Shown: positions 3,816-8,188 of the stretch, piece after piece | Layout of the letters: each line of letters begins with the position of its first letter | Position numbering within the stretch: position 1 is the first letter of the stretch | Assembly: GCF_034092375.1 (NCBI RefSeq) | Contig: NZ_CP139302.1 | Span: forward strand, 1,426,001 to 1,490,000 | DNA length: 64,000 nucleotides | Reading direction: 5' to 3' | Origin: Prochlorococcus sp. MIT 1300 | GTDB lineage: Bacteria; Cyanobacteriota; Cyanobacteriia; PCC-6307; Cyanobiaceae | Notes under the pieces: model-generated | Database searches by the model: none | Seen by the model: the letters and a program-made list of their open reading frames with translations, nothing else | Told to the model about the DNA's origin: nothing | Position numbers and translations under genes: made by a program

Positions 3816-4481
3816 ATGCCTTTTGATACTCCACAGCGTTTAACGCGTAGGCGTAGTTCTGCAGGACCAGTGCCCCCACGCAGACCCCTTGGCAATTCAA
3901 GCGATCCAAGCTTGTCTCATCGCCAAGGACCTCGACCAACTTTTCTGACTCTTCGAGATCATGGAAAGGTTTACGTCGCTGATATGCCCAATTTGTCTGA
4001 TGGGCAGTTGGCCCATGTTGGGAAGGAAGCGCAGGAAGTTTTGGAAAGCCTAGAAAGGCGTATTACTGATCTAGAAAGAGAATTAGGTAATGGTCTTGGA
4101 GATAGTGACACTTTTATTAAGGCTTCTACAAAACGCGACGTAACTAGGCGGTTCATTCGAGCTATTCAGGATGAACAGGAACATCGCAGGAATAATCCGG
4201 CATTAAGAGATGCCGCTACTGAATCATTGCCAAGGACTTTTCTTGAAGTTGCAAGACACCGACTCCCAGGAGCTACATTTGATTCCCTTTTGAGAGAGGC
4301 ATTGGCAGCATGTTCTCCAGAAGAACCTCCAGAGGCATCAACACAGCCACCGCAGCCAACCAACAAACAGCCTGTGCCTCCAGTCAAGGTTGTACCAATA
4401 CGCTCTTCCTCTGCAGCAGCAAATAGTATGCCAGTTGTGGTTAGCCCTGATCCAAACCTCAAGGATTCAACAAGTGCTTGA
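3816..4481 (+). CDS. Conserved-looking hypothetical protein, proline-rich tail
   Basis: I do not recognise a domain. The 221-residue product has a basic, proline-rich N-terminus (about 1-45), a charged helical stretch around 65-95 that could form a short coiled coil (EVLESLERRITDLERELG), a mixed helical middle, and a proline/glutamine-rich low-complexity tail from about 168. No signal peptide or membrane segment is visible, so a cytoplasmic role is likely. ATG start. Codon use is like that of its neighbours, and the opposite-strand readings are worse. Similar picocyanobacterial proteins of unknown function seem likely but could not be searched. Confidence 0.75.
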   Translation: MPFDTPQRLTRRRSSAGPVPPRRPLGNSSDPSLSHRQGPRPTFLTLRDHGKVYVADMPNLSDGQLAHVGKEAQEVLESLERRITDLERELGNGLGDSDTFIKASTKRDVTRRFIRAIQDEQEHRRNNPALRDAATESLPRTFLEVARHRLPGATFDSLLREALAACSPEEPPEASTQPPQPTNKQPVPPVKVVPIRSSSAAANSMPVVVSPDPNLKDSTSA

Positions 4482-5120: not shown

Positions 5121-5149
5121 TTGACAACGTCTCTGCGTTCCATTAACTG
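5121..5149 (+). promoter_or_regulatory. Possible promoter of the recombinase-like gene
   Basis: A perfect -35 hexamer TTGACA lies at 5121-5126, with TAACTG 17 bases downstream as a weak -10. It sits about 55 bases before the recombinase-like gene. Only the -35 match is strong. Confidence 0.3.
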
Positions 5150-5201: not shown

Positions 5202-5837
5202 ATGGAGAAGCGTTTCAGGAGTTCTAAAAACTTTTTTGCAGCCAGCCATTCCTTTATGGCGAGAGCGAGGAAACGGTCTGTGGGTTATGCCCGTATTGGG
5301 ATCGATGATGTTGACGCCCAGCTGCAAGTTGCTGAGTTGAGGGCTGCCGGTTGCAAATATGTAGTCCAAGAATTGAGTAGCAGAGAGGATGGTCTCCCAG
5401 GAATTCGTTTAGAAGAAGTAGTCTGTTCCTTGGGCCAGGCCGATCAGCTGGTTGTGACGAAAATAAGTCGATTAGGCTTGAAGAAGATCGAACTTCTTTG
5501 GTTCCTTAGGGATCTTGAAAGTCAAGGCAAGCATCTCAAAACACTGGATGGATTTCTTGATACAAAGCTTTTAGAGGGATTCGCTGTCCCCATGCTTGGT
5601 TTATTGATTGGATGTAGTGATTTAGAACAGTCTTTAAATAAAGAACAAGCAATTGAGAATATTCATCTTCGACGGATTCAAGGGGGAAATATAAATATGG
5701 GAGGTCGACCAAAGACAAGTGCAATAAAGGAAGCGTTGGTCTTGCGACTAAGAGGTGAGGGATGTTCCTATAGATCAATAAGAGAGCAAACCGGCCTTGC
5801 TCTATCGACAATCCGCAGGATCATTGTGAGTAGTTAG
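5202..5837 (+). CDS. Serine-recombinase (resolvase) relative without catalytic serine
   Basis: The 211-residue product follows the resolvase fold: the first strand VGYARIGIDD (27-36), DAQLQVAELRAAGC, a middle with ADQLVVTKISRLGL (80-93), and a C-terminal Hin-like helix-turn-helix, GGRPKTS to TIRRIIVSS (about 167-211). The catalytic serine that follows YARV in active enzymes is Gly33 here. The second arginine of the DRLGR motif is Leu93, and the aspartate before it is Ser89. DNA cleavage is therefore not expected, while DNA binding may remain. ATG at 5202 is used; a second ATG at 5256 would give a more family-like N-terminus. No strong ribosome binding site decides between them. Confidence 0.8.
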   Translation: MEKRFRSSKNFFAASHSFMARARKRSVGYARIGIDDVDAQLQVAELRAAGCKYVVQELSSREDGLPGIRLEEVVCSLGQADQLVVTKISRLGLKKIELLWFLRDLESQGKHLKTLDGFLDTKLLEGFAVPMLGLLIGCSDLEQSLNKEQAIENIHLRRIQGGNINMGGRPKTSAIKEALVLRLRGEGCSYRSIREQTGLALSTIRRIIVSS

Positions 5838-5846
5838 GCTTTGGTT

Positions 5847-6065
5847 ATGAATGATGAAAACTGGAAAGAAGAGTACAAAAAACTTAAATCTCTTAGGCCT
5901 TACCAAATAAAGTTGCTTGAGGAAGGCGCAACTAGCCTTTCCCAGGCTTGGCTTTTGAACAGCATGTGGTGTGAATGGAAGGAGATAAAGGCTATGACGG
6001 AGACTAATTTGCCTTCTATTGAGGTCTTCTCGGTTGGGACCCCTATGGATCCCTGGGAGGGCTGA
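5847..6065 (+). CDS. Small hypothetical protein (72 aa)
   Basis: Not recognised. The product begins MNDENWKEEYKKLKSL, is charged and largely helical in its first half, and has no membrane segment. It lies 9 bases after the recombinase-like gene on the same strand, so the two are probably co-transcribed. A TTG six bases upstream in frame is a less likely start. Confidence 0.6.
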   Translation: MNDENWKEEYKKLKSLRPYQIKLLEEGATSLSQAWLLNSMWCEWKEIKAMTETNLPSIEVFSVGTPMDPWEG

Positions 6066-6178: not shown

Positions 6179-6676
6179 TTGACTAAAATTAAAGCAATAC
6201 AAGACTTTATCTCTCAGACTTCTCCTCTGTACGATTACTGGTGTTCTGCTCAGGATGCAAACGATGAGAAAAAACGGTTGTTAAAGTCTAATACAAAGTC
6301 TCCCGCTGCTTATCTTTTTCAAGAAGAGCCTTATAAGTGGGAAAATTTATATCAGTGCATTGCAAGGGAGGTCTTGAAAGGTGATTTGTCTTCAATTAAG
6401 GGCATGAAAATTCTTCTTGGAAGTATAACTTTTGAGGAGAGAGAGAGGTTGTTAAAACGGTTCTCAGAGAGAGATCTTTTTGATCAAGATACTATTAACC
6501 TGTTTCGTGCCGAGGAAAACCTGCCTGTTGTTCCAAGGAAAAATCGCTTTAGATTCTTTAGAGTTCTACTTTCCATCTTCTTTAACCCTTATAATATAGA
6601 AATTAAGGGAAGGAAAAAGCACTTATATGAATATACAGGACATCTTGTTTTGACCTTGAGGAAACCTTTCTCGTAA
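6179..6676 (+). CDS. Hypothetical protein (165 aa)
   Basis: Not recognised. The frame opens after a TAA at 6170 and has no ATG near its start, so TTG at 6179 is taken. The composition is ordinary for a soluble protein until about residue 120, where a basic stretch (PRKNRFRFFRVLLSIFF) could touch a membrane or nucleic acid. It could also be the remains of a longer gene. It lies 113 bases after the previous gene. Confidence 0.55.
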   Translation: MTKIKAIQDFISQTSPLYDYWCSAQDANDEKKRLLKSNTKSPAAYLFQEEPYKWENLYQCIAREVLKGDLSSIKGMKILLGSITFEERERLLKRFSERDLFDQDTINLFRAEENLPVVPRKNRFRFFRVLLSIFFNPYNIEIKGRKKHLYEYTGHLVLTLRKPFS

Positions 6677-6830
6677 TAATTACTTGCTATTGTGCTCATA
6701 TTTAGAATATTTTGCCTTTAAGTAATGAATGTCTATAAGCCCCTTTTTTCATTCTTCTTTATTTAAGTTGCTTAGACCAATCGAGTCACGCCTCTTATTT
6801 CTCTAATGTGGTCCGTATGGAAAGGTAAGA

Positions 6831-6901
6831 AGGCGGCACCCAGATTCGAACTGGGGATAAAGGATTTGCAATCCTCTGCCTTACCACTTGGCCATGCCGC
6901 C
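6831..6901 (-). tRNA. tRNA-Cys (GCA)
   Basis: The minus strand folds into a full cloverleaf of 71 bases. The acceptor pairs GGCGGC with GCCGCC and is followed by discriminator U; the TψC loop is GTTCGAATC; the anticodon loop reads TTGCAAA with anticodon GCA. A U discriminator is characteristic of tRNA-Cys. CCA is not encoded. Confidence 0.96.
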
Positions 6902-6946
6902 GCTCGGGATTTTGAATTCCCCTCTGCGGATCGTATCAGTGAAGGT

Positions 6947-8188
6947 ATGCCACAACTGTTAGTTGTCAGCAATGGCCATGGTGAAGATTTGATCTCTTTA
7001 AGAGTTTTAGAGGCTCTTCACAGTATTCATCCCTGGCTATCTCTAAAGGCTTTGCCTCTGGTTGGGGAAGGGAAAGCTTTTGATAAGGCTGTAGCAGAAG
7101 GTTGGTTAAAGGTTTTAGGTGCTGCTCGCAATTTGCCTAGTGGAGGCTTTAGTAATCAGAGTTTAAGAGGATTGGTTTCTGATTTGGCGGCTGGATTAAT
7201 AGGAACTACCTGGCGACAGTGGAAATCAGTTCGATTTGCGGCAAAAGAAGGACATCATGTGCTTGCAGTGGGTGATTTGCTCCCACTTTTTTTTGCTTGG
7301 AGTAGTGGAGCTCACTTTGGTTTTATTGGTACACCTAAAAGCGATTACACATGGCGCAGTGGACCTGGTCATGCTCTGAGCGATTTATATCATTTTTGGA
7401 AGGGAAGTGAATGGGATCCTTGGGAGTGGAGTTTGTTGCGCTCAGCCCGGTGCAAGATGGTCGCGGTTAGAGATCCTTTGACTGCACGTGGCTTGAGAAG
7501 GCATGGGGTATCAGCGAGGGCGCCAGGGAATCCAATGATGGATGGGTTAGATGTCACTCCCACGCCTGAATCTTTGGCAGGGTTTAGGCGCTTAATTTTG
7601 CTTTGTGGAAGTCGAATGCCAGAAGCATCAAGGAATTTTGAATGTTTACTTGACGTGATAGGGCGACTGAATTTCGAGACCCCTCTTGCAGTCTTTATTC
7701 CTCTTAGCTCCCAGCCTTCAGTAGATCAATTAGCACCATCTTTGATTTCGGCTGGTTTTAGTCCTTCAGATTTTGACGACCATGGCTTAGAAGCGCAGGC
7801 TTGTTGGGTTAAAGATAAGAATTTTCTTTTCTTGGCTCAAGGAAAATTTGCGCGTTGGGCGTCTTGGGCAGAAATTGGTCTTGCAAATGCAGGAACAGCT
7901 ACAGAGCAACTCGTTGGTTTAGGGGTGCCTGCACTCTCCTTGCCAGGGGAAGGCCCTCAGTTCAAGATGGGTTTTGCTCGTCGCCAAAGTCGGCTTCTTG
8001 GTGGAGCCGTGACTCCTTGTACTACTAAAGGTTTGATGGCGAGGGCCCTAAAAAGATTGCTCGCAGATCAGTCACTACGTACTCGATTAAGTATTTTGGG
8101 TATGCGACGCATGGGTGCATCAGGCGCAAGTGCTGCCTTGGCAGGTTTAATTTCTCAATTGCTACTAAGTTGTGAGACTGAACATTAG
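6947..8188 (+). CDS. LpxB-related glycosyltransferase-like protein
   Basis: The 413-residue product begins MPQLLVVSNGHGEDL. It resembles the cyanobacterial family distantly related to lipid-A-disaccharide synthase (a GT-B fold), with the glycine-rich SNGHGED at the N-terminus and GNPMMDGL at the domain border. The C-terminal half has the ATEQLVGLGVPALSLPGEGPQ donor-site segment. The substrate is unknown; it need not act on lipid A. The frame stays open upstream across the opposite-strand tRNA-Cys, but a start there is excluded because that region is the tRNA; the ATG at 6947 matches the beginning of the fold. Confidence 0.85.
   Translation: MPQLLVVSNGHGEDLISLRVLEALHSIHPWLSLKALPLVGEGKAFDKAVAEGWLKVLGAARNLPSGGFSNQSLRGLVSDLAAGLIGTTWRQWKSVRFAAKEGHHVLAVGDLLPLFFAWSSGAHFGFIGTPKSDYTWRSGPGHALSDLYHFWKGSEWDPWEWSLLRSARCKMVAVRDPLTARGLRRHGVSARAPGNPMMDGLDVTPTPESLAGFRRLILLCGSRMPEASRNFECLLDVIGRLNFETPLAVFIPLSSQPSVDQLAPSLISAGFSPSDFDDHGLEAQACWVKDKNFLFLAQGKFARWASWAEIGLANAGTATEQLVGLGVPALSLPGEGPQFKMGFARRQSRLLGGAVTPCTTKGLMARALKRLLADQSLRTRLSILGMRRMGASGASAALAGLISQLLLSCETEH

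Follow-up and report, generated by a model that had tools for sequence, protein, structure and literature searches.

The closest described relatives of the protein analyzed here are the resolvases of Tn3 and gamma-delta and the Gin/Hin invertases. The accessory subsites of res are bound by resolvase and are not cut, whereas Hin carries a GRP arm in front of its helix-turn-helix (HTH). TldR proteins are nuclease-dead relatives of TnpB that act as repressors. Tn3 resolvase acting at res is reported to repress tnpR and tnpA in addition to its role in strand exchange (PMC7157771). TldR is a mobile-element enzyme that lost cutting and became a transcription factor (PMC13418256); it is an unrelated, RNA-guided protein. 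A review of recruited mobile-element enzymes, in its accessible text, presents the serine recombinases as enzymes that are active, either in inversion or in resolution (PMC8987985). A family member from Prochlorococcus MED4, PMM1515, is tabulated as "Site-specific recombinase" in PMC7852597. A literature search, largely without subscription papers, returned no report on serine-less recombinases of picocyanobacteria.

The window is a stretch of 64,000 nucleotides from Prochlorococcus sp. MIT 1300 (NZ_CP139302.1, positions 1,426,001 to 1,490,000, forward strand), and it contains the following features.

3816..4481, forward strand: orf3816, the left border gene of the slot
5137..5147, forward strand: GTTCCATTAAC box, putative binding site 65 bp before the start codon (matrix from intact copies)
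5202..5837, forward strand: serine-recombinase relative without the catalytic serine, 211 aa (translation, Pfam, PDB, AlphaFold)
5286..5300, forward strand: codons Y29-A-R-I-Gly33, with Gly33 (5298-5300) at the serine position (translation, alignment with gamma-delta resolvase)
5466..5480, forward strand: codons S89-R-L-G-L93 replacing D-R-L-G-R, with Ser89 at 5466-5468 and Leu93 at 5478-5480 (translation, alignments)
5562..5681, forward strand: long helix, residues 121-160 (AlphaFold model)
5697..5828, forward strand: C-terminal GGRPK arm and HTH, residues 166-209 (alignment, model)
5847..6065, forward strand: small ORF orf5841, 9 nt downstream of the resolvase-like gene, listed from TTG 5841
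6806..8188, forward strand: lipid-A-disaccharide-synthase-related (lpxB-like) gene, TIGR03492, the right border gene
6831..6901, reverse strand: tRNA-Cys, right border of the slot

The window protein is the sole match to the Pfam Resolvase family (PF00239) at E <= 0.001 in the source genome, with 38.3 bits against a cut-off of 23.3. The Pfam model of the resolvase HTH, HTH_7, scores 15.2 bits, below its cut-off of 23.8, so that the HTH is assigned from the alignment of the family and from the structural model. A PDB sequence search matches Gin, which is the best hit, and gamma-delta resolvase, and the best PHROG is "DNA invertase"; in the PDB alignments, the catalytic serine of both enzymes pairs with Gly33, and the DRLGR motif pairs with S89-L93. 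The AlphaFold model (mean pLDDT 80.5) has the resolvase order of elements, namely, a mixed sheet-helix domain, the helix of residues 121-160, which by analogy we take to be the resolvase dimer (E) helix, and a three-helix C-terminal domain. The top PDB fold identified by Foldseek is gamma-delta resolvase on its DNA site (E 2.4e-10). Thus, the replacements at Gly33, Ser89 and Leu93 and the resolvase fold, as given in the original prediction, are borne out by translation, Pfam, PDB alignments and AlphaFold alike. Compared with small serine recombinases, the resolvase fold and the C-terminal HTH are present, the nucleophilic serine is absent, and the aspartate and the last arginine of DRLGR are replaced. 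The active-site residues R31 and R90 are retained, and R149 is missing in addition to D89 and R93. The protein therefore resembles the Tn3/gamma-delta TnpR proteins in fold, domain order and HTH but, unlike them, lacks the serine, the aspartate and the last arginine. The explanation that we favor, and hold to be reasonably probable, is that this is a former res-type resolvase that has lost cleavage, has kept sequence-specific DNA binding and probably acts as an autorepressor.

Matches were found in 120 of the 300 genomes sampled from the family, and a scan of genome contigs gave 47 loci. The alignment comprises 121 distinct long copies from 165 places in the collected loci: 52 serine-bearing copies, 11 serine-less copies from outside the high-light clade of Prochlorococcus (HL), 29 HL copies, 23 copies from a more distant outgroup, and 6 that are partial. 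All five of R31, S33, D89, R90 and R93 are kept in 44 of the 52 serine-bearing copies; given that the other eight have lost at least one, the presence of the serine is not equivalent to activity. In the serine-less non-HL set, R31 is found in one copy, S33 in none, D89 in two, and R90 and R93 in one each. The expectation that Gly33 would be conserved among homologs does not hold, as glycine occupies position 33 in 4 of these 11 copies and seven other residues (Val, Asn, Glu, Asp, His, Thr and Cys) occur once each. The structural residues G28, Y29, C51, D81 and L91 are unchanged in 11/11, as are many HTH positions.

Analysis of genomic contexts reveals one slot, with purM-orf3816 on its left and the tRNA-Cys/lpxB-like gene on its right, that contains or adjoins all 11 of the serine-less copies from outside HL, compared with 10 of the 52 serine-bearing copies (seven of the 52 have less than 5.5 kb of flank, and narrower flanks gave a biased count of 7/52). 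Fisher's exact p for serine loss versus slot is 5.7e-7, with related rows treated as independent and with the 6 partial and 23 outgroup copies left out, one of the latter having an lpxB-like neighbor. Serine-bearing copies in the slot include some with intact motifs (L035/L008, L041/L014, L015, L020, L021, L023) and some with motifs lost (L092, L101). Among the former, L035 from Prochlorococcus AG-409-N21 keeps the serine and DRLGR between orf3816 and the lpxB-like gene, an observation that the original prediction had named as counting against it. Thus, the family probably has active members in the same place, and the window protein is a derived member that is dead. Orientation of the gene inside the slot varies among genomes (e.g., L113, L125 and L028). 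The TIGR03492 match begins at residue 52 of the lpxB-like ORF, so that its true start is probably downstream, inside the ORF; the listed start overlaps the tRNA-Cys gene on the opposite strand. At 6179-6676, the window contains an ORF without a Pfam match, relatives of which also occur in this slot, in both orientations. The four neighbors scanned (3816, 5841, 6179 and 6806) yielded no transposase match and hence no tnpA, another difference from the Tn3/gamma-delta systems. The small ORF orf5841 belongs to a small cyanophage protein family, phrog_16908 (18 phage records), and its relatives lie directly 3' of some intact copies (L035, L040); judging by the spacing, orf5841 and the resolvase-like gene are probably cotranscribed.

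All 29 HL copies for which flanks are available (29/29) share a second fixed slot, where the neighbors are radical-SAM (lipoyl-synthase-like), beta-lactamase-like, NlpC/P60 and PsaL genes. In most of the HL loci listed, the gene overlaps at its end with a small ORF that differs from orf5841. The HL copy is near-core, with a strong match in 82 of the 87 near-complete HL genomes and a weak one in one more. Three more diverged copies (L171-L173, 53-57% identity to the HL query) are also serine-less and have the same right-hand neighbors as the HL copies. Taken together, the tendency is for residents to be dead and for scattered copies to be intact, which is a pattern rather than a test because the rows are related. 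We take one HL genome (G151) to be MED4. Its copy (L105) is located at 1,457,104-1,457,661, and the PMM1515 amplicon of PMC7852597 lies at 1,457,449, which supports this assignment. PMM1515 is thus an HL member of the family of the window protein but differs from it in occupying the other slot, beside the lipoyl-synthase-like and psaL genes, in its downstream small ORF, and in retaining Y-A-R and D-R.

Among 62 distinct HL copies (66 were examined), the serine position is occupied by Thr in 34, Ile in 25, Ser in 2 and Val in 1. The threonines and serines, along with R31 and R90 of the window protein, are what could be expected if these proteins were still recombinases that use a different nucleophile or work in an unusual way. 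However, the last arginine is found in only three of the 62 HL copies and never together with serine (0/62), and the window protein offers no candidate for a nearby residue as nucleophile, having no Ser or Thr at residues 34-38 in addition to lacking D89, R93 and R149. Such a mechanism appears extremely improbable.

The divergence of the dead copies is concentrated in the catalytic domain. Between the 11 dead non-HL copies and 21 chosen intact ones, mean identity is 35% in the catalytic domain and 72% in the HTH, versus 70% and 81% among the intact copies themselves; HL copies compared with intact ones show 33% and 73%, and the best values of the window protein against an intact copy are 40% and 91%. 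The genus of the window is represented by one genome, and dN/dS among copies accordingly refers to HL and to scattered LL copies. In HL (29 copies, 385 pairs), the catalytic domain has a median of 0.225 and the HTH one of 0.039; the values for the scattered LL copies are 0.099 and 0.028, respectively. By these ratios, the HL copies are under purifying selection. The constraint on the HL catalytic domain is weaker but clear, so that the fold is wanted and the active site is not; as the synonymous sites of the HTH have diverged (pooled pS 0.42 in HL), it is the protein rather than the DNA that is conserved.

These values bear on the possibility that the window gene is a decaying pseudogene of a mobile recombinase that is open by chance. 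Some copies of the family carry stops, branches in the tree are long, and HTH-bearing fragments exist, some in the window slot itself (L071/L156, L152). However, the window frame is unlikely to be open under neutrality: with the whole distance to L008 taken as neutral, the probability of no stop in 136 codons is 0.003, and it becomes 0.013 with half and 0.075 with a quarter of that distance, and the HTH differs from that of L008 with dN of 0.10 and dS of 1.73. The confident fold, the selection on the HL clade and the location of 11/11 serine-less copies from outside HL within or next to a single slot also argue against decay, which we regard as unlikely. Remnants that bear the HTH and have lost most of the catalytic domain comprise L071 (5001-5207), L152, L154, L155, L074 and L077, some at the window slot. 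The proposal that the window encodes a domesticated DNA-binding protein rather than a recombinase is best compatible with the loss of catalysis, the retention of the fold and the HTH, and a like loss in relatives under selection; this much of the proposal stands, and the regulatory role is what we infer.

The possibility that all serine-less copies go back to one origin was also considered. The best tree, in which long branches meet, 5 of the 118 rows are unscored and all HL rows are scored as dead (though L117 has Ser at the catalytic position), needs four changes, and a serine-less copy, L028, falls within a group of intact ones (98/85 support). However, a tree with the serine-less copies in one clade, a group named after the tree had been seen, is not rejected (AU p 0.067). 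If L028 is placed rightly, there were at least two losses.

The box upstream of the window gene is of the GTTCC type (single p = 0.010; dyad p = 0.020, with a poor second half-site; 200 shuffles). Many intact LL copies have a GTGTTCCATTAA-like box about 55 bp before the start and a second one at about 137 bp, that is, two boxes about 80 bp apart versus one in the window and three dimer subsites in a res of the Tn3 type, whereas several Synechococcus and LLIV-type copies (the strain types being our presumption) have a dyad of roughly 30 bp with the same arms. In most of the tested genomes of intact relatives, the strong site occurs once, immediately 5' of the gene: this holds for 6 of 8 genomes in a first set, the window's own being one of the 8, and for 7 of 8 in a second set. 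Extra 2-mismatch hits in three genomes of the first set are at the control level. The dyad reaches p <= 0.05 upstream of 6 of the 11 dead non-HL copies and 5 of the 8 sampled HL copies and is not significant at 0.05 in the other five and three; the upstream regions of L126 and L128 contain neither the single box nor the dyad. The HL arms are mostly GTTCT rather than GTTCC. The HL dyad occurs in 16 of 30 upstream regions (one of them empty) versus 82 of 1948 tile-strands, with a pattern written after the same sequences had been seen and with related rows; a strict version, counted at any position, is found in just 6 of 61 HL genomes. At the window box, promoter prediction gave no call of the sigma-70 type.

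Under the favored explanation, the dimer would still bind a GTTCC-type site such as precedes the gene in its intact relatives. The resolvase-like gene and orf5841 would form an operon, and the window box falls within what is presumed to be its promoter region, so that binding would result in autorepression. With the dimer helix and the HTH kept and cutting lost, the protein would retain one of the two functions of Tn3 resolvase, namely, repression. From fold and box to repression, we argue by analogy: TnpR is reported to repress its own promoter at res (PMC7157771), and intact relatives have their strong site immediately 5' of the gene. Together, these features suggest that a mobile enzyme turned into a resident DNA-binding regulator. 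It could instead be a structural or accessory protein that bends DNA or works together with orf5841 and plays no part in transcription; the small ORFs 3' of the gene in many copies and the uncut accessory subsites of res fit such a role, but the box precedes the protein's own gene, as in an autoregulated operon, and we judge it highly unlikely.

Two further uses of the box were considered and found no support. The 17-mer GTTCCATTAACTGTTTT has no second exact copy in the source genome; allowing up to three mismatches, it gives 12+8 hits versus 8+8 for the control, and the looser dyad pattern gives six hits per strand versus seven, that is, it is no commoner than the control, so that no regulon is shown there. 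An invertase with paired inverted crossover sites is likewise not supported: the source genome has one exact box, and 13 of the 15 relatives' genomes, several of which are incomplete, have a single strong site. Thus, although the window protein shares with Gin/Hin the top PDB sequence match, the top PHROG and an arm before the HTH, it differs from these invertases in the loss of catalytic residues, and the tested intact relatives have one strong site per genome.

The HTH is common to dead and mobile copies, and some genomes hold both, e.g., G046 (L091 and L125) and G121 (L006 and L126). A dead resident might accordingly act in trans as a silencer that blocks synapsis or the promoter of intact mobile copies or poisons their tetramers. 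Against this, the window genome has no second PF00239 match, most of the HL genomes listed have one copy, and cross-binding is uncertain given the GTTCT arms in HL; such silencing seems quite unlikely. The broader scheme, in which repeated conversion in picocyanobacteria to resident non-cutting DNA-binders at fixed chromosomal slots would silence incoming mobile copies through the shared HTH and so amount to an immunity that is near-core in HL, is put forward as a speculation with the odds clearly against it.

Several observations concern the mobile copies. Serine-bearing mobile copies (L174, L175 and L176) occur in HL genomes G344 and G384 alongside the dead resident, and one in-frame stop is reported in two of the three and in one G384 copy. 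A phage home of the family was also considered and rejected: identity to 100 phage records is below 60% (27-29% among the 20 matches listed), and viral contigs gave two loci, matched in the HTH only. In one viral contig ORF (L170, 5824-6183), the C-terminal HTH is 56% like that of the window protein; its N-terminus is presumably HNH-like. Several intact mobile copies are preceded, at a distance of a few hundred bases and on the other strand, by Cyano-1 sRNA genes, which we take to be of the Yfr2 type.

L003, 1094-1160: Cyano-1 sRNA
L005, 1036-1102: Cyano-1 sRNA
L044, 4564-4631: Cyano-1 sRNA
L045, 4160-4224 and 4579-4643: Cyano-1 sRNA
L046, L048, L052 and L077: Cyano-1 sRNA

The motif ACTCCTCACACA, which to our eye resembles the Yfr1 core, recurs at about -214 of intact mobile copies, and Yfr10 hits in this region are under threshold.

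If the favored explanation is correct, a gene that is present in 82 of the 87 near-complete HL genomes carries a misleading annotation: the MED4 copy is listed as a recombinase, but no recombination of DNA is carried out by the protein. The family would then include conversions of an enzyme to a regulator with intact parents in related genomes, so that the steps of such a conversion would be directly testable.
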